Assembly: GCA_015487695.1 (NCBI GenBank)
Contig: WFPF01000106.1
Span: forward strand, 1-38,076
Direction of reading: 5' to 3'
DNA: 38,076 nt
Source: Chitinophagales bacterium
Lineage (GTDB): Bacteria > Bacteroidota > Bacteroidia > Chitinophagales > S012-47
In this document: positions 1 to 32,641 of the stretch, piece by piece
Position numbering within the stretch: position 1 is the stretch's first letter
How the letters are laid out: every line of letters begins with the position of its first letter
Translations under genes and position numbers: made by a program
The notes under the pieces: model-generated
Told to the model about the DNA's origin: nothing
What the model saw: only the letters and a program-made list of their open reading frames with translations
The model's database searches: none

Positions 1-883
1 CTCCATAAATAAGGGGCGTGGAACTTGAGGAATTTTCAATATAGAGCTTGTTGCTGCCCAACTCATTGGCTCCGGCATAGTATCCTAAAAATACATTTCC
101 CGAACCCGAGGCTAAACTGCTTCCGGCATTGTATCCGAGAGCTGTATTTTGCGCTCCGGTGGTATTGTTATCAAGGGCATTGGCTCCTACTGCGGTATTG
201 TAACTATTGCTATTTGCAATCAGTGCCCGGTATCCAATGGCCGTGACACCTGAGGCAGCAGTGCTTGCACTGGCTGCTGCGTATCCGAGAGCTGTATTTT
301 GCGCACCTGTGGTATTGGCATCGAGAGATAAAGCTCCTATAGCACTATTATAGACTCCGCTTGTATTGGCTTGACCGGACCTATAACCCATAAAAACATT
401 GTAATTGGTCGAAAGATCATCATTTGCCCCTGCCCATTCTCCGATAAAAACAGATCTGCCGGTATTGAACACTTCTATCTGTCCCTTGGTTGTGATGCGG
501 GTTCTTAAAATATTGTTGGTCCTTATGCTGAGGGCCTGATTGTCCGTGGTTCCGAGAAAATTGCCGGAGGAAAGCGTGCCGCTGTTGCCTGTGAGCAGCC
601 ATCCTTCGTTGCTGGTCCCGAGGCGGATCCAGTTGCTGCCGTCATAATACCAAAATCCGGACGGAGCATCGCTTTGATAAATGATCAGCCCGGTGGCCGG
701 AGTGGCGATGGCCGCTTTCTGTGCTGCGGTCATGCGCGGTATCAGCAGGCCGCTTGATGTCGAAACGATATCCAGCTTGGCACTGGCATCCGGGCTCGTG
801 GTTCCGATCCCCACATTCTGAGCTGATGCTATAGGGCCGATATGTAAAAAAGCAAAGATGAGAATGATGGATAAAAGTTTCAT
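1..883 (-). CDS. Repeat-containing surface protein, S74-family-like (paralogue A), 3' part cut by window edge
   Basis: Open for 294 codons from ATG at 883 to the left edge with no stop, so the C-terminus lies outside the window. It starts with a signal peptide (MKLLSIILIF..., ending SAQ) and then the NVGIGTTSPDASAKLDIV leader and LLIPRMTAAQ segment, which are near-identical to the next two genes. Residues about 85-140 hold the LGTTDNQAL and GQIEVFNTG segments. After these come YadA-head-like units of the NTALGY type, including one full 50-residue unit (residues 178-227, bases 203-352) and part of a second, then the GNVFLG...NKLYIEN segment. Such proteins are exported and probably surface-displayed fibres; the exact role is unknown. 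The missing end may carry an S74 domain as in paralogue B. Compared with B, a whole first head module is absent (see findings). Confidence 0.85.
   Translation of the reverse strand, partial: MKLLSIILIFAFLHIGPIASAQNVGIGTTSPDASAKLDIVSTSSGLLIPRMTAAQKAAIATPATGLIIYQSDAPSGFWYYDGSNWIRLGTSNEGWLLTGNSGTLSSGNFLGTTDNQALSIRTNNILRTRITTKGQIEVFNTGRSVFIGEWAGANDDLSTNYNVFMGYRSGQANTSGVYNSAIGALSLDANTTGAQNTALGYAAASASTAASGVTAIGYRALIANSNSYNTAVGANALDNNTTGAQNTALGYNAGSSLASGSGNVFLGYYAGANELGSNKLYIENSSSSTPLIYG
203..352 (-). repeat. Single full 150-bp head-repeat unit in paralogue A
   Basis: This encodes one 50-residue unit starting YNSAIGALSLDANTTG and ending just before the next YNTAVG start. A second, incomplete unit follows from base 202 downwards. 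It is the same unit that is present eight times in paralogue B and three times in C. Confidence 0.8.
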
Positions 884-1344: not shown

Positions 1345-4300
1345 TTAACGATTCTCGGGATTTTCTTTTTTCATCAAAAGCTTTATTTGCTCCTGCATGG
1401 TTTTCATTTCTTCCCTTAGCATTTGCAGTTCTTTTTCCTGCTTATCCATTCTTTGCTTTTGATCCTCAATGATTTGCTGTTGTTCCTGAATGGCACTTGT
1501 CAAAATCGGGATAAAGCCCAGGTAATTGACGGCTTTAATAGTTTCAGAACCATCTTCTGCAAGTACTTCCTCTCCGTTCTCGTTTTTTTCTTTTTTGAAA
1601 TGAGGATTCTTAATCTCTTTCACCAATTCCGGGAAAAGTGTTTCTACATTTTGTGCTAAAAATCCGTATTGTTTTCCTGAGGGGAGGTTCAGCTCATTGT
1701 TGTCATGGCGAAATTCATAAAATGAAGGGAGTAACATGCCGACTTTGCTGATGATTGAGCCGTCAATTCGATTCACATTTTGCTTTAATCGTTCATCCGA
1801 TGTAGTCCACAATGTTCCGCTCGACAGATAGGCGGTGCCTAAGCCGTAGAATGCATAATTTGTACTGCCGCCTGACGGGTTGGAATAAACTCCGTAATTT
1901 ATTCCGGAAGCACTGTTTTTTATTACACGGTTGAAAATGCCATATGCATTAGAGGTTTGCGAAACAGGGGAACTTACGTAATTGTATATTCCATAGAATG
2001 TTCCGTTCGGTGAACCGGTAGAGGACAAATTATTGTAAATACCATACTTCCCATATGAAGCATTGGCGGAGCTGGCCAGGGTATATAAATACATCCCGTA
2101 AAGGCTACCGAAAGCTGTTGCACTTTGATTGCTTCTTCCGTAATAACCGTACACATATCCGCTGGCATTGGCGTAGGCGCTATTGTAAAAGCCGTAATTT
2201 GCAGATGCACCGCCAAAATTCTGGGATAAATAAATGCCAATGGAGTTGGTATTTGAAGCAACATTTAACTTGCCGCTTGTCGAAGAGGTGCCGATACCTA
2301 CCGTGCCGCTCACTGCACTGAATTGATTAACGCCTGAAACGGTCCAGTCGGCATCATTTAAAGAGGCCGGGTTGGTCCAGGTGAGAGTGCCCGAGCCATT
2401 GGAAGAAAGCAAATAGCCCGAAATGCCCTCAGTGGCCGGGAAAGCATAGCCGGTGGCAGCCGGATTGTTTACCTGCAGGGTACCGTTTATTCGCAGAAGA
2501 TTTGCAGCAAAATCGCCATAAATAAGAGGCATAGTGCTTGAAGTATTTTCAATATAAAGCTTATTGCTGCCAAATTCATTGGCCCCTGCATAGGCCCCCA
2601 AAAAAACATTCCCCGATCCCGAACTTACACTCGTCCCGGCCTGATAACCCAGAGCCGTATTGTATGTGCCGGTGATATTGTTATCCAGGGCACTGGCTCC
2701 TACGGCCGTATTGTAATTGCCCCTATTGTAATACAAAGCATTGTATCCGATGGCCGTGATGCCGTTGGTATAGATATTTGTGGTAGCAGCATTGTAACCC
2801 ACTGCAGTATTTTGCGTTCCTGTGGTATTTGCATCGAGGGCATTGGCCCCAACAGCGGTATTGTAATGGGCCCGGTTGCTCGCCAATGCATTGTAGCCGA
2901 TGGCGGTGATGCCGTTGGTGGTGCTATTGATGCCGGCTGTGTTGTATCCGAGTGCCGTATTTTGAGTTCCTGTGGTATTGTTGTCCAGGGCATAGGCTCC
3001 TACGGCTGTGTTATAACTGGCGCTATTGTATAACAAAGCATTGTAACCGATAGCGGTGATACCACTTGTATTGATATTCGTGGTTGCGGCATTGTACCCC
3101 AGAGCCGTATTATAGGTTCCCGTAGTATTGTTGTCCAGGGCATAGGCTCCTATGGCTGTATTGTAATTGCCCCGATTGTAAAACAAAGCATTGTAACCGA
3201 TGGCGGTGATACCGCTGGTATTGATATTCGTGGTTGCGGCATTGCACCCCAGAGCCGTATTAAAGGTTCCCGTAGTATTGGCATCGAGGGCAAAGGCTCC
3301 AACAGCTGTATTGTAGTTATTGCTGTTTACAAGCAGTGCCCGGTATCCAATAGCCGTGACTCCTGATGCACCAGTGCTTGAAGTGGCGGCATTGTATCCC
3401 AGAGCCGTATTATAGGTTCCCGTAGTATTTGCATCGAGGGCATTGGCCCCAACAGCGGTATTGTAATGGGCCCGGTTGCTTGCCAGTGCATTGTATCCGA
3501 TGGCCGTGATGCCGCTTGTGTTGATGTTGGTCGTAGCGGCATTATATCCCAGAGCCGTATTTTGCGTTCCTGTGGTATTTGCATCGAGGGCCAGGGCACC
3601 TACTGCGGTATTGTAGCTATTGCTGTTTACAAGCAGTGCCTGGTATCCAATGGCCGTGACTCCTATTGCACCAGTGCTTGAAGTGGCGGCATTGTATCCC
3701 AGAGCCGTATTTTGCGTACCTGTTGAATTGGCATCGAGGGCATAGGCTCCTACCGCGGTATTGTAGCTTGCCCGATTGATTGCCAGTGCATTGTATCCGA
3801 TGGCCGTGATTCCGTTTGTGTTGATGTTGGTCGAAGCGGCATTGTACCCCAGAGCCGTATTATAGGTTCCCGTAGTATTGGCATCGAGGGCATTGGCCCC
3901 TATAGCCGTGTTACCACCGGCCCTATTTGCTCCCAGAGCATTGTATCCCAGAGCCGTATTAAGTGTGCCTGTAGTATTGGCATCGAGGGCAAAAGCTCCT
4001 ATGGCTATGTTGGAGTATCCTGATGTATTTGCCACACCGGCCCTGTAACCCATAAAAACATTGTAGTTGCTAGAAAGGTCATCATTTGCCCCCGCTGATT
4101 CTCCGACAAAAACAGAATTGCCGGTATTGAACACTTCAATTTGTCCTTTGAGAGTGATGCGGGTTCTTAATACATTGTTGGTGCGGATGTTGAGTGCCTG
4201 ATTATCTGTGGTTCCGAGAAAATTAAGAAAACTGGTTCCTGCATTGCCGCTCAGCGACCAGTAGTCACCGGTGAGAAGAGCGGCCGGATCTACCCAACTC

Positions 4301-5697
4301 AGTGTGCCGGCTCCGTTGCTGGCCATTACATAATTTGCCGACCCGTCTGATGCCGGGAATGCATATCCGGTAGTTGTGGGATTGTTGACCTGCAGCATAC
4401 CGTAAATGCGCAGATAATTGCCTGCAAAATCTCCATAAAGCAGTGGTTGTGGGGTATTGCTGTTGTCAATATAGAGTTTATTGTTGCCGGTTTCGCTGAA
4501 TCCCGCCTGTGCCCCGAGAAAAACATTTCCGCTACCGATATTGGAGAACCCGGCATTGTAGCCAATGGCCGTATTGTTTTGGCCACTGACGTTATTCGTA
4601 AGGGCATTAAATCCCAGCCCGGTGTTGTTGCTTCCGCCAGCGTTTATATCCAGTGTAAATGCACCCAGGGTTACGTTATTTGATCCGGTGGTATTGCTGA
4701 GCATCGAGCGATATCCGATGGCCGTATTTCCGTTTCCCGTGTTGACGACCGGGTTGGCAGATCCGCGGAGAGCATAGGTTCCTATGGCCAGATTTTGATT
4801 CGTAAAAGGGGTAGCGGTATTGTTGGCAAATCTCATGGCATGATATCCGATGGCAACCGCGTAACTGCCGGTCCTGCTGTTTTGCAGGGCATTGTTCCCA
4901 ATACTGATATTTCCGGCTCCGCTCGTATTTTGAAATAAAGAATAATATCCGATGCTGACATTATCATTTCCCGTAGTTGAATTATAAGCGGAAAACATTC
5001 CCATGGCTGTATTTGATGCTCCTGTGGTGTTCCTGGTCAGGGCATGAGAGCCTACTGCCGTATTGTATGCGCCTGTGCTGACGGCCAATGCGTTATAGCC
5101 AATGGCGGTAATGTATCCTGCAGTTGTACTGCTGCTTGCCGCACGATAACCGATGGCCGTATTGTAAAATCCGGTAGTATTGCCGGTGCCGGACTGATAG
5201 CCCACAAAGACATTGGAATTGTTGCTCAGATCGTCTGCGGCTCCGGCCCCTTCACCGATAAAGACCGAGAAGCCCGTATTGAGTACCTCTATCTGTCCTT
5301 TGGTAGTGATGCGGGTTCTTAAAATATTGTTGGTCCTTATGCTAAGGGCCTGATTATCTGTGGTGCCGAGAAAATTGCTGGAAGAAAGCGTACCGCTGTT
5401 GCCTGTGAGCAACCATCCTTCATTGCTGGTTCCGAGGCGGATCCATATGCTTCCGTTGTAATACCAAAACCCGGACGGAGCATCGCTCTGATAAATGATC
5501 AGCCCGGTGGCCGGGGTGGCGATGGCCGCTTTCTGTGCAGCAGTCATGCGTGGTATCAGCAGTCCGCTTGATGTCGAAACGATATCCAGCTTGGAACTGG
5601 CATCCGGGCTCGTAGTTCCGATACCCACATTCTGTGCCGATAGTTCATGGGTGGTGAGCAGTATGGAAAGGATAGCAAGAAGGGATAGAAGTTTCAT
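1345..5697 (-). CDS. Giant head-repeat surface protein with C-terminal S74 auto-processing chaperone domain (paralogue B)
   Basis: 1450 residues. I start at ATG 5697, which gives MKLLSLLAIL..., aligned with paralogue A; an in-frame TTG three codons upstream is less likely. Order: signal peptide (to about residue 21, SAQ); GIGTTSPD leader; head module 1; head module 2, which begins with a repeat of the LGTTDNQAL/GQIEV segment and includes eight exact 50-residue units (residues 595-994); a YGIYN-type repeat stretch; an S74 domain with the TSDERLK motif (Ser1300, bases 1798-1800) and YGFLAQNVE; then a C-terminal coiled coil. S74 domains of phage tail spikes fold trimeric beta-structures and then cut themselves off at the conserved serine. 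By analogy this is probably a trimeric exported fibre whose chaperone tail is released. No T9SS sorting domain is visible. Surface location and binding partner are inference. Confidence 0.88.
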   Translation of the reverse strand: MKLLSLLAILSILLTTHELSAQNVGIGTTSPDASSKLDIVSTSSGLLIPRMTAAQKAAIATPATGLIIYQSDAPSGFWYYNGSIWIRLGTSNEGWLLTGNSGTLSSSNFLGTTDNQALSIRTNNILRTRITTKGQIEVLNTGFSVFIGEGAGAADDLSNNSNVFVGYQSGTGNTTGFYNTAIGYRAASSSTTAGYITAIGYNALAVSTGAYNTAVGSHALTRNTTGASNTAMGMFSAYNSTTGNDNVSIGYYSLFQNTSGAGNISIGNNALQNSRTGSYAVAIGYHAMRFANNTATPFTNQNLAIGTYALRGSANPVVNTGNGNTAIGYRSMLSNTTGSNNVTLGAFTLDINAGGSNNTGLGFNALTNNVSGQNNTAIGYNAGFSNIGSGNVFLGAQAGFSETGNNKLYIDNSNTPQPLLYGDFAGNYLRIYGMLQVNNPTTTGYAFPASDGSANYVMASNGAGTLSWVDPAALLTGDYWSLSGNAGTSFLNFLGTTDNQALNIRTNNVLRTRITLKGQIEVFNTGNSVFVGESAGANDDLSSNYNVFMGYRAGVANTSGYSNIAIGAFALDANTTGTLNTALGYNALGANRAGGNTAIGANALDANTTGTYNTALGYNAASTNINTNGITAIGYNALAINRASYNTAVGAYALDANSTGTQNTALGYNAATSSTGAIGVTAIGYQALLVNSNSYNTAVGALALDANTTGTQNTALGYNAATTNINTSGITAIGYNALASNRAHYNTAVGANALDANTTGTYNTALGYNAATSSTGASGVTAIGYRALLVNSNNYNTAVGAFALDANTTGTFNTALGCNAATTNINTSGITAIGYNALFYNRGNYNTAIGAYALDNNTTGTYNTALGYNAATTNINTSGITAIGYNALLYNSASYNTAVGAYALDNNTTGTQNTALGYNTAGINSTTNGITAIGYNALASNRAHYNTAVGANALDANTTGTQNTAVGYNAATTNIYTNGITAIGYNALYYNRGNYNTAVGASALDNNITGTYNTALGYQAGTSVSSGSGNVFLGAYAGANEFGSNKLYIENTSSTMPLIYGDFAANLLRINGTLQVNNPAATGYAFPATEGISGYLLSSNGSGTLTWTNPASLNDADWTVSGVNQFSAVSGTVGIGTSSTSGKLNVASNTNSIGIYLSQNFGGASANYGFYNSAYANASGYVYGYYGRSNQSATAFGSLYGMYLYTLASSANASYGKYGIYNNLSSTGSPNGTFYGIYNYVSSPVSQTSNAYGIFNRVIKNSASGINYGVYSNPSGGSTNYAFYGLGTAYLSSGTLWTTSDERLKQNVNRIDGSIISKVGMLLPSFYEFRHDNNELNLPSGKQYGFLAQNVETLFPELVKEIKNPHFKKEKNENGEEVLAEDGSETIKAVNYLGFIPILTSAIQEQQQIIEDQKQRMDKQEKELQMLREEMKTMQEQIKLLMKKENPENR
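2716..3915 (-). repeat. Eight tandem in-frame 150-bp repeats inside paralogue B
   Basis: Eight consecutive units of exactly 150 bp, each starting at a Y/G-NTA(V/I)G codon block; the unit tops fall at 3915, 3765, 3615, 3465, 3315, 3165, 3015 and 2865. Each encodes a 50-residue YNTAVGA.ALDANTTGT..NTALGYNAA...GITAIGY.AL unit, i.e. three or so YadA-head-like turns. The middle linker alternates between NINTSGI-type and SSTGASGV-type versions. A partial ninth unit follows below 2716. Confidence 0.95.
4080..4230 (-). repeat. Second copy of the LGTTDNQAL/GQIEV module in paralogue B
   Basis: Bases about 4080-4230 repeat the segment at about 5225-5380 at an offset of exactly 1152 bp (384 codons). For example the same 14-base block TGATTATCTGTGGT starts at 4199 and at 5351. 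The duplicated segment opens each of the two head modules. Confidence 0.75.
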
Positions 5698-5773
5698 AGT
5701 ATTCAATTAATTCACAACTAATTCATTAGACCTTGAGGCGTATGGGGATTTGGATTAATCGGTAAAGATATTA

Positions 5774-5932: not shown

Positions 5933-8728
5933 TTAATGATTTTCGAGTCTTTTTTCAATATGCTCCAGGCGTTTCTCCAGGAGGAGAATGCGTTCTTCCT
6001 GCCTCCTGATGACTTCATTTTGCTCCCGGAGGCGTTTCTGCATTTCCTTTACCGACAACCCCGGGGAAAGGGGCGAATACGATTTCGGGACATATTCCTT
6101 TTTTGATTTGTCATAAAGGTAAATGAGCTGCTCGCCCGAAAGTTGCTCAATGAGGCGAATGGCCTTCGTCATGTCCACATTAATAATTTGTTGATTTCTT
6201 TCGGAATAAAAAGACCAGGCCATTTCTTCGCTTCTGCCTCCGGGAATGAGGCTGAAATTGTGTGGCGACAATACGGTAGTGTTGCCCGCTTCATCCCTTA
6301 CATACAATTCGCTGGAGGCGCTTAAATCGGCCGCATAAAGTTGTACACCGTTTGCTACCGATGCGGCTGGTTGTGTCCCGTTGAAGATCGCCAGCACATT
6401 GTTGGCCGAGGCATCAAAACTTTTTGATCCGATGCTCAGGTTCCCGTTGATGGCGGCATCATTTGTGCTGAAATCACCCCAGATCAACGGAGATGTGGTG
6501 GAAGAGTTGTCAATATAGAGTTTATTGCTTCCGGTCTCGTAATATCCCGTAAGGTAGCCTATAAAAACATTGGAATTGCCATTGTTTTTATATCCCGCAT
6601 ATGCTCCGAGAGCCGTATTATATGCGCCAGTAGTGCTTTGTCCGAGAGTACTGAAGCCCAGCGCTACGTTTCTGTCTCCGCTGCTGTTGCTTTCCAGTGC
6701 CAGCGACCCCAGTGCCAGATTCCCCTGTCCGGTGCTTTCGCTGAAGAGGGCTTTGTGTCCGAGTGCGCTGTTGTTGCTTCCTGTTGTGAGCGAATAGAGC
6801 GCGTGATGGCCGGCTGCGGTATTGGAATCTCCGGAGCTGTATGAGTAGATGCTTTCATAGCCGAGGGCCGTATTGTAGTTACCGGTAATGTTGGAGAAGA
6901 TGCCGCCTCCGTACATGGCCCGGTAACCCAGCGCTACATTGTATGATATACCGGGTGTCGCTGTATTTGAAGCTTTATGAAGGGCCTGATAGCCAATGGC
7001 GGTGGCACGGCTTGCCGCCACACTGTAGTACATGGCTGAGCGGCCAATGGCCACATTTTGCGAGCCGGTCGTATTACTAAAAAGCGCATCCCCTCCAATG
7101 CCGGTATTTTCCGACCCGCTGGTGTTATTATACAGCGCAATTCGTCCCAAGGCACTGTTTGTAGTTCCCGTAGTGTTGGCACTAAGGGCATGTTGTCCAA
7201 TTGCCGTATTGTAGCTTCCACTGGTGTTGGCATCCAGGCTGAAGCTGCCCACGGCCACATTGAATCCTCCGGTGGTATTGGCCAGCATGGAAGAGGATCC
7301 CACGGCTGTATTGTTTTCCCCTTTATTGGCATTTAATGCATTGTATCCTATGGCCGTGATGTAGCTGCTTGTTGTGCTTTCGCTTGCTGCGGCATATCCC
7401 AGTGCGGTATTGGAGAGACCGGTCGTATTTGAATCCAGGGCATAGGCACCTACAGCGGTATTACCACCGCCTGTGTTTACTGCCAGTGCGTTGTAACCGA
7501 TGGCTGTGATTCCACCTGCAAATACACTTGCCGAAGCCGTGTTATATCCCAGGGCTGTATTGTATGCTCCGATGGTATTGGCATCCAAAGCACCGGCTCC
7601 TACAGCGGTATTGTAGCTTGCGGTATTTAATTTCAGTGCCCGGTGCCCAATGGCCGTAACTCCATCCGAAGCGGTGCTTGCAGTGGCGGCATTGTATCCC
7701 AGAGCTGTATTATATGTACCGGTGGTATTGGCATTCAGGGCATTGGCTCCTACCGCGGTATTGTAATTGCCGGTTGTATTGTTATATAGGGCAAATGCTC
7801 CCGTTGCAAGATTCTGGATCCCCGTACTTATTTTATTCATGGACCTGAAGCCTACGGCCGTATTGCTTTCGGCACTGGTAAATTCTTTCATGGATTCGGC
7901 TCCGATAGCGGTGTTGTATTTCCCGGTGTTGTTGCCGGCTATACCGGATCCGTACAGTGCATGTGAACCCATGGCCACATTGTATTGAATAGAAGCAGTC
8001 GTAACATCATAGGCATTGCCCATGGCCAGATAACCCACAGCCGTTGAATAGCTGCCGGCCCGGTTTTTAAACATAGCCATGCGGCCTATTGCCGTGTTGG
8101 CATCTCCCGTATTCAACCACAGGCTGCTTTCTCCATAGGCTGCATTGTAGCTGCCGCTTATATTGTAATACATGCTGTAGCGGCCATATGCCGAATTTGA
8201 GTTCCCGCTCGTATTGCTGAAACCCGCATATGACCCAATGAAAGTGTTGTTATTCAGCACTAAATCGTCACTGGCTCCGGCTCCTTCTCCCAAAAAGACA
8301 GAGCCACCCGTATTCAGTACTTCGATCTGTCCTTTGGCTGTGATCCTTGTGTAAATGATATTGTTAATCCTGATGTCGAGGGCCTGATTGTCCGTGGTTC
8401 CCAAAAAATCCGTTCCGTTGACGGTGCCTGCATTTCCCTGCAACTCCCAACCATTCACCCCACTGAGCTGTTGCCATATGCTGCCATCAAAATACCAGAA
8501 CCCTGCGGGGGCATCACTTTGATAAATGAGCAGCCCGGTGGCCGGAGTGGCGATGGCCCCTTTCTGTGCTGCGGTCATGCGGGGTATCAGCAGTCCGCTG
8601 CTGGTAGATACGATATCGAGTTTGGCACTTCCGTCCGGTGTGCTGGTCCCGATTCCGACATTCTGTGCCTGCAGGCTTGCTAAAGAAAAGTAAAGAATGA
8701 TGAGGGCAATCAGGCTTTTATTACTCAT
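5933..8728 (-). CDS. Head-repeat surface protein with coiled-coil tail, no S74 domain (paralogue C)
   Basis: 931 residues from ATG 8728 (MSNKSLIALI..., signal peptide ending LQAQ); a TTG two codons upstream is disfavoured. It has the same leader as A and B (NVGIGTSTPDGSAKLDIV, LLIPRMTAAQ), one LGTTDNQAL/GQIEV segment, and a long run of YadA-head-like units (NTAIG, NTALG, NVAIG). Three of the 50-residue units lie at residues 322-471. After the GNVFIG...NKLYIDN segment the tail differs from B. It has a SELYVRDEAGNTTVLSPHNF-type segment, known to me from bacterial and phage-like structural proteins, then about 55 residues of charged heptad-like sequence that should form a coiled coil. No S74 motif or T9SS domain is present. 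It is likely an exported oligomeric fibre; its function is unknown. Confidence 0.85.
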   Translation of the reverse strand: MSNKSLIALIILYFSLASLQAQNVGIGTSTPDGSAKLDIVSTSSGLLIPRMTAAQKGAIATPATGLLIYQSDAPAGFWYFDGSIWQQLSGVNGWELQGNAGTVNGTDFLGTTDNQALDIRINNIIYTRITAKGQIEVLNTGGSVFLGEGAGASDDLVLNNNTFIGSYAGFSNTSGNSNSAYGRYSMYYNISGSYNAAYGESSLWLNTGDANTAIGRMAMFKNRAGSYSTAVGYLAMGNAYDVTTASIQYNVAMGSHALYGSGIAGNNTGKYNTAIGAESMKEFTSAESNTAVGFRSMNKISTGIQNLATGAFALYNNTTGNYNTAVGANALNANTTGTYNTALGYNAATASTASDGVTAIGHRALKLNTASYNTAVGAGALDANTIGAYNTALGYNTASASVFAGGITAIGYNALAVNTGGGNTAVGAYALDSNTTGLSNTALGYAAASESTTSSYITAIGYNALNANKGENNTAVGSSSMLANTTGGFNVAVGSFSLDANTSGSYNTAIGQHALSANTTGTTNSALGRIALYNNTSGSENTGIGGDALFSNTTGSQNVAIGRSAMYYSVAASRATAIGYQALHKASNTATPGISYNVALGYRAMYGGGIFSNITGNYNTALGYESIYSYSSGDSNTAAGHHALYSLTTGSNNSALGHKALFSESTGQGNLALGSLALESNSSGDRNVALGFSTLGQSTTGAYNTALGAYAGYKNNGNSNVFIGYLTGYYETGSNKLYIDNSSTTSPLIWGDFSTNDAAINGNLSIGSKSFDASANNVLAIFNGTQPAASVANGVQLYAADLSASSELYVRDEAGNTTVLSPHNFSLIPGGRSEEMAWSFYSERNQQIINVDMTKAIRLIEQLSGEQLIYLYDKSKKEYVPKSYSPLSPGLSVKEMQKRLREQNEVIRRQEERILLLEKRLEHIEKRLENH
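7316..7765 (-). repeat. Three tandem 150-bp head-repeat units in paralogue C
   Basis: Three in-frame 150-bp units with tops at 7765, 7615 and 7465, each 50 codons long and matching the pattern of the array in paralogue B. They are more diverged from each other than the B copies. Confidence 0.85.
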
Positions 8729-8960
8729 TTTCAATGGCTTGTGTAATTTAAATTCTTGTAGTCCGGAGGTGTTGAAGATTGCTTAAAAGTATATAATATT
8801 TAGAATATATGAATTTTGGGTTCCTTATTTAATCGAATATTAAGAAAATGTAATGCTTCCTACGCTTAAATTTCCTCACGGTTACACTTCGCAGCAGATT
8901 CCTGAAAATTCCGGGAGCCGGCCGTTAAGTTGAACGCAGGACCGGGTCTGAAATAGTCCC

Positions 8961-9117: not shown

Positions 9118-11553
9118 CTAACGAAAAGCGTCCTTCACGTTCAGGTAGTCGATGTAATAAATCACTTTGAGTGAGAGGCCGTTGAAAGCCGGATTATCGG
9201 CCAGGAGATCGAGGTTCTTAAAATAATCGAGGGGCAGGTCGTTGCCGGATTGAAAGATGGAAAGCTTCCATACGAGCGAAAGGTCGCTGCCCGGAGCAAA
9301 ACGCCAGGAGTAGCCCAGGTCGAGGGTCAGGGCATTGAAATTGGTATTGTGCAGGGGCTCTCCCTGGCTGTCGCTGCCACTGTAGGCGGTTTGGGCCAGT
9401 TCACCATTGCTCAGGAGCTCGTAAAACTGAAAATATTTCACTTTGGACCAGTAATGCCTCAGTTTCATACGCATCCCCATTTTGTTATTGAAAATATAGG
9501 ACCCGATGAGGGTTTGCGTAAGGGTGAGCTGGTTGCGCTGGCCGAAGATCACCTTGTCTTCCCAGAAAGTGGCATATCCGACATCATGGTAGGAGCGGTT
9601 TTGCGACCAGCTGAAGGTCGTGAAGAACTTGTCGTTGAAGCGAATGCGGGGGGCTACGTTGGCAAAGAACCCCCATCGTCCTTTTTCTTCGGTCAAATCG
9701 ACACCGCCCCGGATATCCACAACAAATTTCTTGCGATAGTCGGGAGAGAAGAAAGCGAAAATTCCCCCGCTGGCGGGCCTGTGATAAAAGAAGCCTTCTT
9801 TTCGCGGATCAAAGTAGTCATTGTAACCGGCCGGGCTGGCGTAGATTCGGCTGCCCACCGTCAGAAAATTCTGGAAGGTGGTCAGATGAAAAGCCGATAT
9901 ATTCCAGGAGACAAGGGCATTGGGGTTGTAAAGCCGGTTGTAGGAGATATTGATATCATTCAAGTGGCGAATAAACGGGCCCTTGGGTTCGTAGATGTTG
10001 TACGATAGCGTGATATCCGCTTCGCGTGTGTTGTTGTTGAGCTGAAATCCGAGGTCGCTCTGATCATATTGATCATCCATGACGAAATAAGAGAGATCAA
10101 ACTGAAAATTTCCGCTGATCTTTTTTATGGCACCCCAATATTGCAGGCCCAGTTCCGTATTGTCCGGACCGGGGTAGTAGTGCTGGCTGATATTGATTCC
10201 TCCGCGGCCGCTGTATGTATTTGTTTTATCTCTCAGCTCAAATTCTCCGGCACTTACATTGGCTTCCGGAGCGGCTCCTTCGCGCCATACATTCGTATTA
10301 ATGAAGGCTACATAAGAGTTATTTTTCAGTGCCTGGTCAAGTACGATGATGTTGTAATTCGTCAGCGGATTGCTGAGAATCTGGCGGCTTCTGCCCTGCT
10401 CATCCTCGGCCGTTGCATACATTCGGTTTTCAAGCGCATTGAAGAATCCGATCCCGAGCTTTTTGCTGTTTCGTCCTGATATTTTGGTAGCATTGATGAG
10501 CTGGCTCCGGCCCGGATTGCTGGTCAGTGTTTCGTTTTCCTTCAACTGAGAGGCTACTTCATCGCGATAGAAAGGTGTGCCCCCGATCCTTCGGGAGTAG
10601 AAGATATCGCCACGGTTGAAGAGCTGCACACCTTCGGTGAAAAATTGCCTTCGCTCGTCAAAACGGACTTCAAAGGGAGAAAGGTTGAGCACCTGCTCAT
10701 CAAATTCCACCTGGCCGAAGTCAGGAATAAGGGTCATGTCGAGGGTGAAAGCATCGTTGATGCCATATTTGAGGTCCATACCTCCGTTGATGCGTTCATC
10801 GCTTTTCAGGGAGTGGTCGACCGGGTCGCTTGTGATATCCAGATAAGTGGATACATAGGGCGTAAATGAGAGACGAAGAGGCGGTTCTATGTCCCTGATT
10901 CCTGTCAGGTAGCCCATCTGAGTGAGCACTCCGGGCCCATCGGGTGTCACCTCGTTCCACCAGCTTTCTTCGCGGTATCGTCTGATTTCGCGGATAAAAT
11001 TGATGGCCCAGTGTTGCTCTTTTGATTTCGGAAAACGAATGGCACTATAGGGAATGCGCATCTCTACGGTCCAGCCACTGTCGTGTATGCGCACTTCGCT
11101 GGCCCAGACCAGGTCATAGCTCATGTCGCGGTCTTCGGGCGTAAAACGGCCATCCAACTGCACTCCGGCTGCGGTGACAGAAAAACCCGTGCCGGCCAGG
11201 CCGTCATCATAGGGATTGAGGAAAACCCCGAACCAGTCATCATTTTCCGCATTGTCGCGCAATGTCAGTTCCGTAAGAATGCTGTCGGGAGCCGTGTCGT
11301 ACAATATGGCTCCGACATAAAGCGCTTTGTCGTCATAGAGTATTCTGATCTCGCTTTTCTGCCTGGAAGCTTTGCCGGGATCAGGCGTGGTTTGTATAAA
11401 ACGGTCGCTTGCCGGAGCCTCTGACCATGCCGCTTCGTTGAGCAAGCCGTCAATTTTTATATTTTCCGTTGTACGTACGGCTTTGATTTCCTTCTGCCCG
11501 TAGCTTAAGAGGCAGATCCATGTGAAGGTGATAAGTAATATGCTTTTTTTCAT
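9118..11553 (-). CDS. DUF5916 outer-membrane protein with CBM9-like N-terminal domain
   Basis: 811 residues from ATG 11553, with a signal peptide (MKKSILLITF..., cleavage near YGQ). Residues about 25-215 look like the family 9 carbohydrate-binding fold: IKIDGLLNEAAWSEAP, LYVGAILYD and the WTVEMRIPYSAIRFP strand. The remaining about 590 residues match the DUF5916 pattern, with DFGQVEFDEQVLNLSPFEVRF, FFTEGVQLF and a series of alternating polar/hydrophobic strands typical of an outer-membrane barrel, ending without a T9SS domain. These proteins are common in Bacteroidota and are thought to sit in the outer membrane; ligand and substrate are not established. It is transcribed alone, with the dioxygenase gene diverging upstream across 100 bp. 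Confidence 0.85.
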   Translation of the reverse strand: MKKSILLITFTWICLLSYGQKEIKAVRTTENIKIDGLLNEAAWSEAPASDRFIQTTPDPGKASRQKSEIRILYDDKALYVGAILYDTAPDSILTELTLRDNAENDDWFGVFLNPYDDGLAGTGFSVTAAGVQLDGRFTPEDRDMSYDLVWASEVRIHDSGWTVEMRIPYSAIRFPKSKEQHWAINFIREIRRYREESWWNEVTPDGPGVLTQMGYLTGIRDIEPPLRLSFTPYVSTYLDITSDPVDHSLKSDERINGGMDLKYGINDAFTLDMTLIPDFGQVEFDEQVLNLSPFEVRFDERRQFFTEGVQLFNRGDIFYSRRIGGTPFYRDEVASQLKENETLTSNPGRSQLINATKISGRNSKKLGIGFFNALENRMYATAEDEQGRSRQILSNPLTNYNIIVLDQALKNNSYVAFINTNVWREGAAPEANVSAGEFELRDKTNTYSGRGGINISQHYYPGPDNTELGLQYWGAIKKISGNFQFDLSYFVMDDQYDQSDLGFQLNNNTREADITLSYNIYEPKGPFIRHLNDINISYNRLYNPNALVSWNISAFHLTTFQNFLTVGSRIYASPAGYNDYFDPRKEGFFYHRPASGGIFAFFSPDYRKKFVVDIRGGVDLTEEKGRWGFFANVAPRIRFNDKFFTTFSWSQNRSYHDVGYATFWEDKVIFGQRNQLTLTQTLIGSYIFNNKMGMRMKLRHYWSKVKYFQFYELLSNGELAQTAYSGSDSQGEPLHNTNFNALTLDLGYSWRFAPGSDLSLVWKLSIFQSGNDLPLDYFKNLDLLADNPAFNGLSLKVIYYIDYLNVKDAFR

Positions 11554-12619: not shown

Positions 12620-12630
12620 ATTTCTCTATT
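12615..12630. repeat. Short inverted repeat between convergent stop codons
   Basis: AATAGA and TCTATT flank a four-base loop and include the stop codon region of both convergent genes. It is AT-rich and weak; if it matters, it could help end transcripts from both sides. Confidence 0.3.
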
Positions 12631-15391
12631 CCGATTTTATGAAGCTGCGTACTCCTTTGCCCTCTTTGCTTTCGAGCTGCAGGAAGTAGATGCCTGGAGC
12701 CAATTCCCCGAGGGGCAACCCGTCTGTGGATCCCAGCATTCCACGGCTTACGAGGCGGCCTGACTCGTCAAATATGTGATAAAGTGCTCCGGTTTCTGCG
12801 AGGCGTCCCCGCAGCCGGAGCTGATTCCTCACAGGATTGGGATAAAGCTCAAATGATTCTTTCTTTTCGTTCGAGGGGCTTCCTGTGATGGCGGGGGTAA
12901 AGTAGGCGCGGTAAATACCGTTTCCGTGTGTTGCCACCAGCACCTGCCCGTCTGCTTCGCGGGCCTTCACCATTTCCACCACCACATTTCCGATGCTTTC
13001 GCTGCCATATTGCACCCAGACGGTATTTTCTCCCTGCAGTTTTTTGGTGCCAAAGAGGCCGACACTCGTTCCGGCCAGGTAAAGCGTATCGACTCCCATG
13101 GGGAGGATAGCCAGCGAACGCACAGAAGGTCCGTTGCCGCCTCCATTGGGAAACTGCTCCAGGTTGCCGGCCGCTTTTTCCCAGCTTTGCCCCCCGTCAT
13201 GGCTGTAAAAAATACTGTAAACACGATAATTGCTGTATGCCACCAGAATCTTCCGGGCGTCTCCCGGATCTACGGCAATGCTGCTGGTGTAGGCAGAGAG
13301 GTTGATGCCGGCCGGATAGCCATTCCGGTCTTTGATACTCAGCAATTGCGAAGCGGGTTGGCCCGTATGGGCATTCTCGATTCGGTAAATGCGTGCCTGA
13401 TCGGTGCCGAAATAGAGCGTGTGGGCGGGGTTGCTGCCACTCAGAGCCAACGAAGTAATTATCTTTTGCTCCAGCGTGTCGGGGAAAAACTCCCAGCCCG
13501 TGCTGATCGAATCGTCTCTCCCGTTGAGGGGAAGACTCTTCAACTGATTGTTGCGCCAGAGCACCCGGCCGGCCGGGAAATACATGATATCCTCGTCATT
13601 CGGATCCAGAGAAAAGGGATTGACGAAGAGGGCATCACGGGCTTCTGCCGGATCGATGCGGGTAAATGCCAGGCTGTCGCCCCCGGCATCAAGGCTGAAT
13701 TTATACACTTTGCCCCGCTGTTTTGAGAGGTAAAAAGCTTCTTCGTCAGAGGTGATATAGGAATAGGAACCATCTCCGTTGAGGGGCATTACCCAATCCG
13801 ACTGCAGATCGGCACTTCGCGTTACAAAGTTGCCATTGTCCTGAAATCCGGCCGCAATGCTCGGGGTGGCTTCCTGGCGGTTCATGCTGAGGGCATAGAG
13901 TTGTGTAGTGACATAGCGATGGTTCAGCGACTCCCATCGTACGGTATCGGCATAGGCATCGCTTGTTTTGTAGAGGCCTCCGTCATTCGCGGTGATCAGA
14001 GCAGCGGGCTCCGAAGGGATAAAAAGAAACTTATGCTGATCTGGGTGGTGCGTTTCGTAGATCTTCCAGCGGGCGCGTGTGCTTCCGGGATGATAGCCGC
14101 CCATCAGGGAAGTATGGAGGCTGTCGCGGAAGGCATTGTCTGATCGATAGACATTGGTTCCGCCCAGAAAAAGCACATTGCTGTCGAGGGGAGATACGGC
14201 TATGCAGAGGTCGTAGCCTCCCTGCGAGTTGAAATGGTCGAAGCGGCTGCCTTCATTCGGGATATTGGATGAAAGGTCCTGCCAGCGCCCTCCGCTGCCG
14301 CTGCCGTCCCCCGAGCGGTATTCGTATTTCCAGAGGCTGGTCCACTCGGTTTCTCCAAAAAATACAGCGGTTTTCTTTCCGTAGCCGGGTGTGCGGGCAA
14401 GAAAATAGAGCTGCTTCTCATTGGCCGGATTGAAGGCCATCACAATGCGGTCATAGGCAGCCGGGAAGCTATCCGGTAGAATACGGGTCCATTCCTGCCC
14501 GTCATCACTGCGCCAGATTCCCCGGTACTGGGAGCTTCCGTCACTGCTGAGGGTGGCGTAGGCCACACCCGAGGGAGTCAGGAGTATGTCGCTCGTGTAG
14601 GAGCGGTTGCTTGCCGAGCCCAGTACCGTTTCCCAGCTGTCCCCGCCATCGATGCTCCGGAGGATGGCGCCATAGCACGCTGCATAAACTACGTCCTGGC
14701 TGTCGTTGGCCGGATTGACGGCTACGCGGTAAACAATGTCGAAATTCTGATCAAAAGAATTCTGCGCACTGCTTACTGTACTGGCCAGGGGGGTCCAGCT
14801 TTTTCCGCTGTCTTCGGACTTATAAAGACCGTTGCCGAGGAAGAAAGCTCCGCCTGCTCCTGCCGAGTTGCCCAGCCCTTCACCGGTTCCGTAGTACCAT
14901 ATATGTGTCTTTCCGGGCCGGGTGTCCTGCACCAGTGTAGTGACGGAATGAAACTGCCCGGGGTCGGTTCTTTTGCTCCAGCTCATTCCGCCATCGGTGC
15001 TGCGCCACACACCTCCCGAAACTCCGGCAGCCAGGATAATGCGGTCATTGTTGACATCAATGGCGGCTGCGCGGGTACGTCCTCCCACATTGGGCGGCCC
15101 CAGGTGCTCCCAACTGCCCGAATCCTCGCTTGCCCTGGGAAGGGTGCGGGCATAGGCCAGTTCTTTCGCCCGCATGTTCGCAGGTATCCCGCCATCGGGG
15201 GCTCGCAGGCGTTTTAGTTCCCAGTCTTCCGTGGCAGCCCGCAGGCCCTCATAGCTCCGGCCGAAGACAAAGCGGGGGCCTTTCCTGCTCTCCTTGAAGT
15301 GGCCTTGCTCCTGATCAGGGACGGCAGTGCGGAACAGGAAAAAAATCAGGGCGGAGACAATGGCCGCAAAGAGGAATAATTTCTTTTTCAT
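12626..15391 (-). CDS. Secreted Asp-box (BNR/sortilin-like) beta-propeller protein with T9SS sorting domain
   Basis: 921 residues from ATG 15391, chosen because it gives a clean signal peptide (MKKKLFLFAAIVSALIFFLF) with a purine-rich run just before it; an in-frame ATG 17 codons upstream (15442) gives an unlikely hydrophilic leader. Repeated Asp-box motifs (S/T-x-D-x-G-x-x-W) are seen: RSTDGGMSW, KSEDSGKSW, RSIDGGDSW, RSDDGQEW, YSHDGGQSW. These place it in the BNR/VPS10-type propeller group, whose members include glycosidases and binding proteins; no catalytic set could be picked out. The last about 75 residues (ELYPNPVRNQLRL ... GELAPGIYFLQL) are a type A T9SS sorting domain, so it should be exported across the outer membrane and be surface-bound or released. 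Confidence 0.87.
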   Translation of the reverse strand: MKKKLFLFAAIVSALIFFLFRTAVPDQEQGHFKESRKGPRFVFGRSYEGLRAATEDWELKRLRAPDGGIPANMRAKELAYARTLPRASEDSGSWEHLGPPNVGGRTRAAAIDVNNDRIILAAGVSGGVWRSTDGGMSWSKRTDPGQFHSVTTLVQDTRPGKTHIWYYGTGEGLGNSAGAGGAFFLGNGLYKSEDSGKSWTPLASTVSSAQNSFDQNFDIVYRVAVNPANDSQDVVYAACYGAILRSIDGGDSWETVLGSASNRSYTSDILLTPSGVAYATLSSDGSSQYRGIWRSDDGQEWTRILPDSFPAAYDRIVMAFNPANEKQLYFLARTPGYGKKTAVFFGETEWTSLWKYEYRSGDGSGSGGRWQDLSSNIPNEGSRFDHFNSQGGYDLCIAVSPLDSNVLFLGGTNVYRSDNAFRDSLHTSLMGGYHPGSTRARWKIYETHHPDQHKFLFIPSEPAALITANDGGLYKTSDAYADTVRWESLNHRYVTTQLYALSMNRQEATPSIAAGFQDNGNFVTRSADLQSDWVMPLNGDGSYSYITSDEEAFYLSKQRGKVYKFSLDAGGDSLAFTRIDPAEARDALFVNPFSLDPNDEDIMYFPAGRVLWRNNQLKSLPLNGRDDSISTGWEFFPDTLEQKIITSLALSGSNPAHTLYFGTDQARIYRIENAHTGQPASQLLSIKDRNGYPAGINLSAYTSSIAVDPGDARKILVAYSNYRVYSIFYSHDGGQSWEKAAGNLEQFPNGGGNGPSVRSLAILPMGVDTLYLAGTSVGLFGTKKLQGENTVWVQYGSESIGNVVVEMVKAREADGQVLVATHGNGIYRAYFTPAITGSPSNEKKESFELYPNPVRNQLRLRGRLAETGALYHIFDESGRLVSRGMLGSTDGLPLGELAPGIYFLQLESKEGKGVRSFIKSE

Positions 15392-15535
15392 CCTTTCTCG
15401 GATTTTCAATATGCAAGCCCCGGAAAATGAATGGATATCCATGTTGCTCTTCCTTTATTTCCGGATTTGGCTTCATCTAAAAATGGATCAGCGGAAGAGC
15501 TGTTACCCGAAAATAGGGAATTGTCTTCATTCGGG

Positions 15536-31483: not shown

Positions 31484-32641
31484 ATGAAACGCTTTATCCT
31501 ATCTTCCATCCTCATTCTTTCCGCCCTTCTGAGCCAGGCTCAGGAGAGTTCCTGCGGAACGGAGCTTACAGCCGAGCATTACAAAAACCTGGTGGAACTG
31601 GTAGGAGATGCCCAGCGGATCACGGCCATGCGTTCAGGGTCTATCAAAATCCCGGTCAAGGTGCACATTGTGCAGAATGCGGACGGGTACTCAGGATTGA
31701 GCATGGACGACATCATTTTCGAATTTGACAAATTGAATGACCTCTTCAGCGGTGCCGATATGGAGTTTTATCTTTCCAGCGAGATTGATTACATAAAAGA
31801 TGAGGAACTCTATGATTTCAATCAAAGCGAAGAAGCCAGACTTGCAGCTTCCAGAGACGAGCCCAATGCCATGAATATCTATTTTGTAGGATCTATCACC
31901 AATAAGCAGGGCAACGAAATTTGCGGGTACACCTATTATCCCGAGGCCAACCGCGATCGCATCTTTGTGGCAGCCGGATGCCTGCAAAACAGCAGCACGC
32001 TGGCCCATGAAATCGGACATTACTTTTCTCTGATCCACACGCACGGCATCAGCGGCATCGACCCGGAAGCCGTTAACGGAGAGAACTGTGAAAAGGCCGG
32101 AGACCTGCTCTGCGACACACCGGCCGATCCCAACCTTTTGGGAAAAGTGGACGGAGATTGCAGTTACACAGCCCACGAACGCGATTTCAACGGTGATGCC
32201 TATGATCCGGATACCCGCAATATCATGTCTTACGCTCCTTCTTACTGCCGCAGTGAGTTTTCTATGGATCAGCTGAAAGTGATGACAGCCTCTTATCTGG
32301 AAAACAAAAGCTACCTCGTAGCAAATGACGATTATTCGCCCATTGCCGATTTCGTTTCTAACAAGAACTTCAACGATGAGGTAAGCAATCAACTTCAAAT
32401 CAAGGTCTATGCTAATCCCGGTGCCGACCAGCTGGGTGTGGAAATACTGGACGGGCTCGAAGGAGAATTCAGGGTGCAGGTCTTTAATATTATGGGCAAT
32501 TTGATCTATGAAGAACCCATGGATACCTACAATCAGGGAAATAAAATGATACTGGATCTCAGTGCCAATGTACGGGGTGTCTATTTCGTCAATGTGGTCG
32601 GAAAAGGCCGCCATGCCAGCGAAAAAGTGATGCTCATGTGA
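31484..32641 (+). CDS. Secreted M43-type zinc metalloprotease with T9SS sorting domain
   Basis: 385 residues, signal peptide to about residue 20 (LLSQAQ). The zinc site is the metzincin motif His175-Glu176-x-x-His179-x5-His185 (HEIGHYFSLIHTH), with the Met-turn at Met248 (NIMSYAP). The spacing of about 60 residues and the cysteines between (NCEKAGDLLCDTP, DGDC, SYC) fit the pappalysin-like M43 family. The last about 75 residues (VYANPGADQLGVEIL ... VRGVYFVNVV ... SEKVMLM) are a type A T9SS sorting domain, so it should be exported through the outer membrane. No propeptide of usual length is seen. It ends at a well-formed terminator. Confidence 0.92.
   Translation: MKRFILSSILILSALLSQAQESSCGTELTAEHYKNLVELVGDAQRITAMRSGSIKIPVKVHIVQNADGYSGLSMDDIIFEFDKLNDLFSGADMEFYLSSEIDYIKDEELYDFNQSEEARLAASRDEPNAMNIYFVGSITNKQGNEICGYTYYPEANRDRIFVAAGCLQNSSTLAHEIGHYFSLIHTHGISGIDPEAVNGENCEKAGDLLCDTPADPNLLGKVDGDCSYTAHERDFNGDAYDPDTRNIMSYAPSYCRSEFSMDQLKVMTASYLENKSYLVANDDYSPIADFVSNKNFNDEVSNQLQIKVYANPGADQLGVEILDGLEGEFRVQVFNIMGNLIYEEPMDTYNQGNKMILDLSANVRGVYFVNVVGKGRHASEKVMLM

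Follow-up and report, generated by a model that had tools for sequence, protein, structure and literature searches.

Block-copied three-coil repeats in the predicted stalk of a putative S74-type surface fibre of a Chitinophagales bacterium

Introduction

Several described systems bear on the locus presented here. In the MAT fibres of Bdellovibrio bacteriovorus, the signal peptide is followed by a conserved beta-rich N-terminal domain of about 130 amino acids which has no homologue in the PDB, and the S74 domain with the SDxxxK motif is present in one subgroup of the fibres and absent in another (PMC10769870). Location on the surface and binding of glycans of the prey are further marks of the MAT fibres. 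The head of BpaC of Burkholderia pseudomallei is a solenoid expanded by a three-layer motif, and one homologue is ten layers shorter; the authors propose a change of length via tandem repeats, and the layer spacing is 4.8 angstroms (PMC9543794). Periscope Proteins are defined by monomeric, individually folding domains which are encoded by highly identical DNA and are variable within populations (PMC8201768, PMC9704523). They are detected as repeats of more than 50 amino acids with at least 80% identity, and arrays of the most identical repeats vary most (PMC8201768). In a literature search, no paper on the Bacteroidota proteins described below was found.

Results

Locus and composition of P0001

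The analysed stretch of 38,076 nucleotides (the window) comes from a Chitinophagales bacterium, the assembly of which comprises 137 contigs and 2.77 Mb; it corresponds to contig 106. Both the type IX sorting domains encoded in it and its relatives indicate Bacteroidota. Three adjoining genes of the minus strand, P0002, P0001 and P0003, share a common N-terminal module (Table 1). P0001 is composed of a signal peptide, two solenoid cassettes, a variable tip, an S74 chaperone and a coiled coil. The Peptidase_S74 domain at its C-terminus was detected with 35.2 bits against the Pfam cut-off of 22. The SDxxxK catalytic motif is present as SDERLK at residue 1303, and its S, D, R and K are invariant in the alignment. 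A 21-bp repeat in two copies was seen in the coiled-coil end of P0001 at positions 1452-1492 of the window.

P0003 is without the C-terminal part and the gene on contig C129 (L103:3-2552) is without the N-terminal part; therefore, the two are probably one gene which was broken by the assembly. No 51-mer common to the two contig ends was found.

Table 1. Features of the fibre locus, in window coordinates.
Feature	Position	Strand	Remarks
P0002, paralogue	5933-8734	-	Has a P0001-type N-terminal module and three full units of 50 aa; lacks an S74 match
P0001, fibre protein gene	1345-5706	-	1,453-codon open frame, probably starting with the ATG at 5697
P0001 signal peptide	5635-5697	-	MKLLSLLAILSILLTTHELSA; read from the sequence
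P0001 cassette 1	4270-5376	-	~13 irregular coils between the head module (NFLGTTD) and the end module (GNVFLG to GYAFPA)
P0001 cassette 2, predicted beta-solenoid	2347-4269	-	28 coils, among them those of the array, between a head and an end module
Two-coil unit preceding the array	3913-4011	-	NIAIGAFALDANTTGTLNTALGYNALGANRAGG; 33 aa, one coil short
Array in cassette 2	2713-3912	-	Eight exact 150-bp (50-aa) units; coils of 17+16+17 residues
Ninth, terminal unit	2563-2712	-	DNA 52-58% identical to that of the eight units; merges into the cap (GNVFLG)
107-bp block	2424-2530	-	Exact match to contig C129:1643-1749; surrounding end module 92% identical
P0001 variable tip, YG-rich	1801-2325	-	Similar to C126 and G001 (same genus); unrelated to the C129 tip
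Peptidase_S74 (PF13884)	1618-1800	-	SDERLK; predicted self-cleavage at Ser1303
P0001 C-terminal coiled coil	1348-1530	-	Beyond the S74 core; read from the sequence
P0003, paralogue	2-883	-	Truncated at the contig end; has a P0001-type N-terminal module and a single full unit

Period, register and linkers of the array

A preliminary description of this DNA had reported, inside a giant surface protein, eight consecutive units which keep the reading frame, measure exactly 150 bp each and contain no indel. The array was borne out. The units run from 3912 to 2713, each of 50 codons, the interval 2716-3915 given earlier being another phase of the same array, and they lie in frame within a fibre-like protein which is predicted to be exported on account of its signal peptide. 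Tandem Repeats Finder, the check suggested there, resulted in a period of 150 with 8.4 copies at 2648-3906 of the window (score 977), and a period of 300 with 3.7 copies was called in parallel. The low identity of the ninth unit (Table 1) is due to its transition into the cap.

The identity of the array with itself at lags of 150, 300 and 450 nt was determined to be 0.74, 0.77 and 0.71, respectively, in comparison with 0.26 ± 0.01 for shuffles. Random synonymous recodings of the array protein resulted in identities of 0.66-0.69, and none of the 500 recodings reached the observed values. Therefore, the repetition of the DNA exceeds what the protein imposes and reflects shared DNA ancestry.

Three levels of repetition were distinguished: the coil of 16-17 residues (N-T-A-[VIL]-G-[AY]-x-A-L followed by a loop), the 50-residue unit of three coils, and the cassette with its head module, coils and end module. 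As the coil spacing of 17-17-16 is invariant in the array, the unit amounts to 50 residues and the period of 150 bp is of a higher order. The linkers of the units, in N-to-C order, are NINTNGI, SSTGAIGV, NINTSGI, SSTGASGV, NINTSGI, NINTSGI, INSTTNGI and NIYTNGI. The two linker types reported earlier were found again; SSTGA is confined to units 2 and 4, and the other six units have NINT-like linkers or variants. The statement that many blocks are identical between units was too strong: the pairwise DNA identity of the eight units was 59-89% (mean 74%) with an amino acid identity of 64-88%, and the longest exact blocks were of 56, 45 and 45 bp. The longest exact repeat is shorter than typical reads and, for that reason, the count of eight is probably genuine and not an assembly artefact.

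Age and mode of copying

The synonymous difference among the units ranged from 0.22 to 0.83 and was 0.56 overall, and the non-synonymous difference was 0.16. The most similar unit pairs were 2/4 (89%), 5/6 (87%), and 1/3 and 5/8 (83%). These values fit one duplication of a pair, in which units 1-2 gave 3-4 (83% and 89%), together with one duplication of a single unit (5/6), in agreement with the earlier suggestion that units were copied both singly and as pairs. In the tree which included the units of the paralogues, the SSTGA-type units 2 and 4 clustered with P0003 and P0002 units at support values of 98 and 92, and most of the remaining nodes were weak. Since the unit types group across paralogues, the linker types predate the genes. 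The runs of shared polymorphic sites exceeded those of permutations, the best p value being 0.001 with all columns and 0.007 with third positions, which indicates patchwork exchange. The pN was 0.03 in the core and 0.26 in the loops and the pS 0.46 and 0.68, respectively; judged by these values, the core positions are under strong purifying selection and the loops are freer.

It had been proposed that the copy number changes by slippage or recombination. There is support for block copying and patchwork exchange but not for slippage in the present day: recent slippage was rejected in view of the synonymous divergence, as even the youngest pair differs at 22% of its synonymous sites. The comparison of the units supports an array which was grown and patched by the copying of three-coil blocks, the copies being old. 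The 56-bp exact repeat would in principle be long enough for homologous recombination. Nothing in the analysed genomes, one per species, points to a variation of the array length between strains today.

These data bear directly on a hypervariable length switch of the Periscope type, in which units would be gained and lost now by recombination and rods of different lengths would be mixed within a population. The exact in-frame period, the three longest exact repeats and the unequal unit counts of the paralogues (see below) speak for such a switch, but the average DNA identity lies below the Periscope rule of at least 80% (PMC8201768), the overall synonymous difference is high and no copy is recent. 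We consider the switch improbable.

Unit number in paralogues and relatives

The full 50-residue units numbered 8 in cassette 2 of P0001, 3 in P0002, 1 and 2 in the two cassettes of the partial C129 gene, and 1 in P0003. The counts of 8, 3, 2, 1 and 1 differ among paralogous cassettes of one genome, as the proposed changes in copy number would have it. As to whole cassettes, P0001 and the C129 gene have two each, those of P0001 comprising about 13 and 28 coils, and P0003 has one.

The same eight units, whose presence everywhere had been named as the sign of a fixed array, do not recur: the three other family genomes analysed are without the array, an absence which in fragmented assemblies is weak evidence. 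The array protein had no match in family genomes G001 and G003, and G002 has single-coil (51-bp) arrays instead; in further relatives repeat periods such as 51, 99 and 102 bp were found. Among the genomes seen, the three-coil unit is therefore a feature of this one. The array DNA had no match in the genomes of 19 relatives, which alone shows little, and a regular-expression census of cassettes across species gave few comparable ones. A match to the P0001 protein was detected in 48 of 60 related genomes.

In three relatives (L008, L007 and L015), 51-bp single-coil arrays were observed with a local DNA identity of up to 88-97%. These are better candidates than the present array for length variation today. 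A match with 53% in the best segment was seen in a record of another phylum titled Candidatus Brocadia carolinensis (L091), due to either transfer or contamination.

Exchange between sister genes and the mosaic family

Two cassettes of the C129 gene share a 153-bp tract (near L103 541-700 and 1459-1618) with 1 mismatch and sharp edges, and its flanks are about 70% identical. The tract could be the result of gene conversion or, the assembly being fragmented, of an assembly error. A block of 107 bp is exactly common to the end modules of P0001 cassette 2 and C129. The tract within one gene and the block common to two genes both speak for block exchange between cassettes.

The identity profile between P0001 and C129 rises from about 70% to 100%, the stalk ends being 90-100% identical, and falls to about 30% ahead of the S74 domain; therefore, the end of the stalk is shared and the tip is different. 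The tip and S74 domain of P0001 resemble those of the C126 protein (33%), whose N-terminus and stalk differ, as well as a G001 protein (36%), G001 being a genome of the same genus. The C123 paralogue (L106:300-2843) contains nine YadA_head stretches and an S74 domain, and its N-terminus is similar to the P0001 chassis; judging from this protein, the stalk types on the S74 chassis look interchangeable. P0002 consists of a stalk and a C-terminal coiled coil, with no S74 match. By their sequences, the relatives of P0001 are a mosaic family.

An array which has been static since the early gene family was weighed against these results. Its period would be kept by selection on the solenoid alone and the shared blocks would be leftovers of old duplication. 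The high synonymous divergence, the strong purifying selection on the core and the unit types older than the genes are in accordance with such stasis. However, the DNA identity is above that of synonymous recodings, the mosaic runs and the near-identical C129 tract point to exchange, the latter in a sister gene, and the paralogues differ in unit number. A static array is therefore regarded as unlikely.

Coil structure and viral relatives

Cassette 2 (641 aa) and a stretch of four units (200 aa) were modelled with AlphaFold2; over the coils the pLDDT was about 90, and the pTM values were 0.72 and 0.85, respectively. Both models are continuous solenoids with one coil per 16-17 residues, so that a beta-solenoid fold of the coils is predicted with confidence; three short strands per coil are suggested by the models for part of the array. 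In the PDB, no significant fold match was found by Foldseek with either model and no match by sequence profile, which makes the coil a clear target for structure determination. There was no Pfam match for the coil. YadA_head (PF05658, with 14-residue layers) and YadA_anchor (PF03895) had no Pfam match in P0001-P0003, and a YadA head was rejected on account of the missing Pfam match and of the absence of a significant Foldseek match in the PDB.

The viral Foldseek matches to the coil model included an FhaB-like adhesion protein of Bodo saltans virus, Prochlorococcus phage P-SSM5 and a marseillevirus, with E values down to 2.6e-27 (Bodo saltans virus) and 38% identity. The coil also matched the PHROGs tail-spike family phrog_4636, PHROGs virion families and 102 phage records.

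Genomic context

The cellular neighbours in the window include DNA polymerase I, SHMT and proteins with type IX sorting domains. The sorting-domain proteins at 12626-15442 and 31484-32641 of the window are Sortilin/BNR-like and M43 peptidase-like, respectively. A DUF5916 protein with a CBM9-like domain (9118-11553 of the window) is located directly upstream of the fibre genes and has homologues in relatives. The neighbour P0004 had no match in the same-genus genome G001; in other relatives it did have matches. Within the window, which on one side ends with the contig inside the next paralogue, no phage genes were recognised by Pfam. No inverted repeats of at least 12 bases were found between the genes, and invertible promoters were rejected. 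Promoter- and terminator-like sites were not above shuffles; one of them, within the array, matches a promoter at 11 of 12 positions.

S74 domains are common in phage spikes. An origin of the genes from a prophage or a phage-tail-like particle, rather than from the cell surface, would account for the matches of the coil to tail-spike and virion families and phage records but is highly improbable in view of the signal peptide, of the neighbourhood, in which Pfam recognised no phage genes and which is made up of genes for housekeeping and for substrates of type IX secretion, and of the matches to the protein in most of the related genomes.

Discussion

The explanation held with good confidence is that the array forms the stalk of an exported, S74-chaperoned surface fibre, the length of which evolves by copying, loss and exchange of blocks while the tip is swapped separately. 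From the established knowledge of S74 domains and by analogy with the MAT fibres (PMC10769870), the P0001 chain would be exported and trimerised with the help of S74. In the manner known from phage spikes and from the MAT fibres of Bdellovibrio, the S74 domain would then cleave itself off at Ser1303, and the processed protein would stand on the cell surface as a tipped fibre, possibly with a role in adhesion in which its length may matter. With the layer spacing of BpaC, each 150-bp unit would provide three coils or about 14 angstroms of rod, and the eight units about 115 angstroms. Over evolutionary time, the length of the stalk would change as blocks of coils are copied in frame, lost or exchanged in patches, both inside a cassette and among its paralogues, and the tip would be exchanged as a separate module.

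According to the MAT idea, fibres are phage-like, process themselves and have stalks and tips which can be swapped; the proposed fibre extends this idea to a Bacteroidota genome, the relatives of which mostly carry similar proteins. It also makes the growth of a solenoid readable from the DNA: the blocks consist of three coils, their cores are conserved and their loops free, and sister genes exchange sequence. A broader proposition is offered tentatively, and we hold it with more doubt than conviction: the coil may represent a solenoid without a solved relative which is common to Bacteroidota fibres, marine phages and giant viruses, the Bacteroidota S74 chassis may also take YadA-type stalks, and the three-coil growth may have arisen independently of BpaC.

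In comparison with known systems, the fibres of phages and giant viruses are similar to the array in coil motif and predicted fold, a likeness known for the coil alone. Periscope Proteins resemble the array in their in-frame tandem repeats which form a rod, and the number of units could set the reach in both. In contrast to them, the array consists of three-coil units of one continuous solenoid, and its units of 50 residues with the DNA and amino acid identities given above fall outside the Periscope detection rule. BpaC, lengthened by a three-layer repeat as the array is by a three-coil one, is the closest precedent for this mode of growth. However, BpaC is a trimeric autotransporter adhesin with 14-residue layers of the YadA family and a membrane anchor, whereas P0001 has coils of 16-17 residues and an S74 domain instead. 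The MAT fibres share with the P0001 family a signal peptide, a long beta-rich stalk, diverse tips and paralogues with swapped parts (PMC10769870), and their S74 and non-S74 subgroups are paralleled by P0001 and P0002, respectively. The mosaic architecture of the MAT type, with a shared stalk, different tips and members both with and without S74, was found in the P0001 family. P0001 differs in originating from another phylum and in building its stalk from 17-residue coils in 50-residue units. The MAT family is the closest working analogue of P0001.
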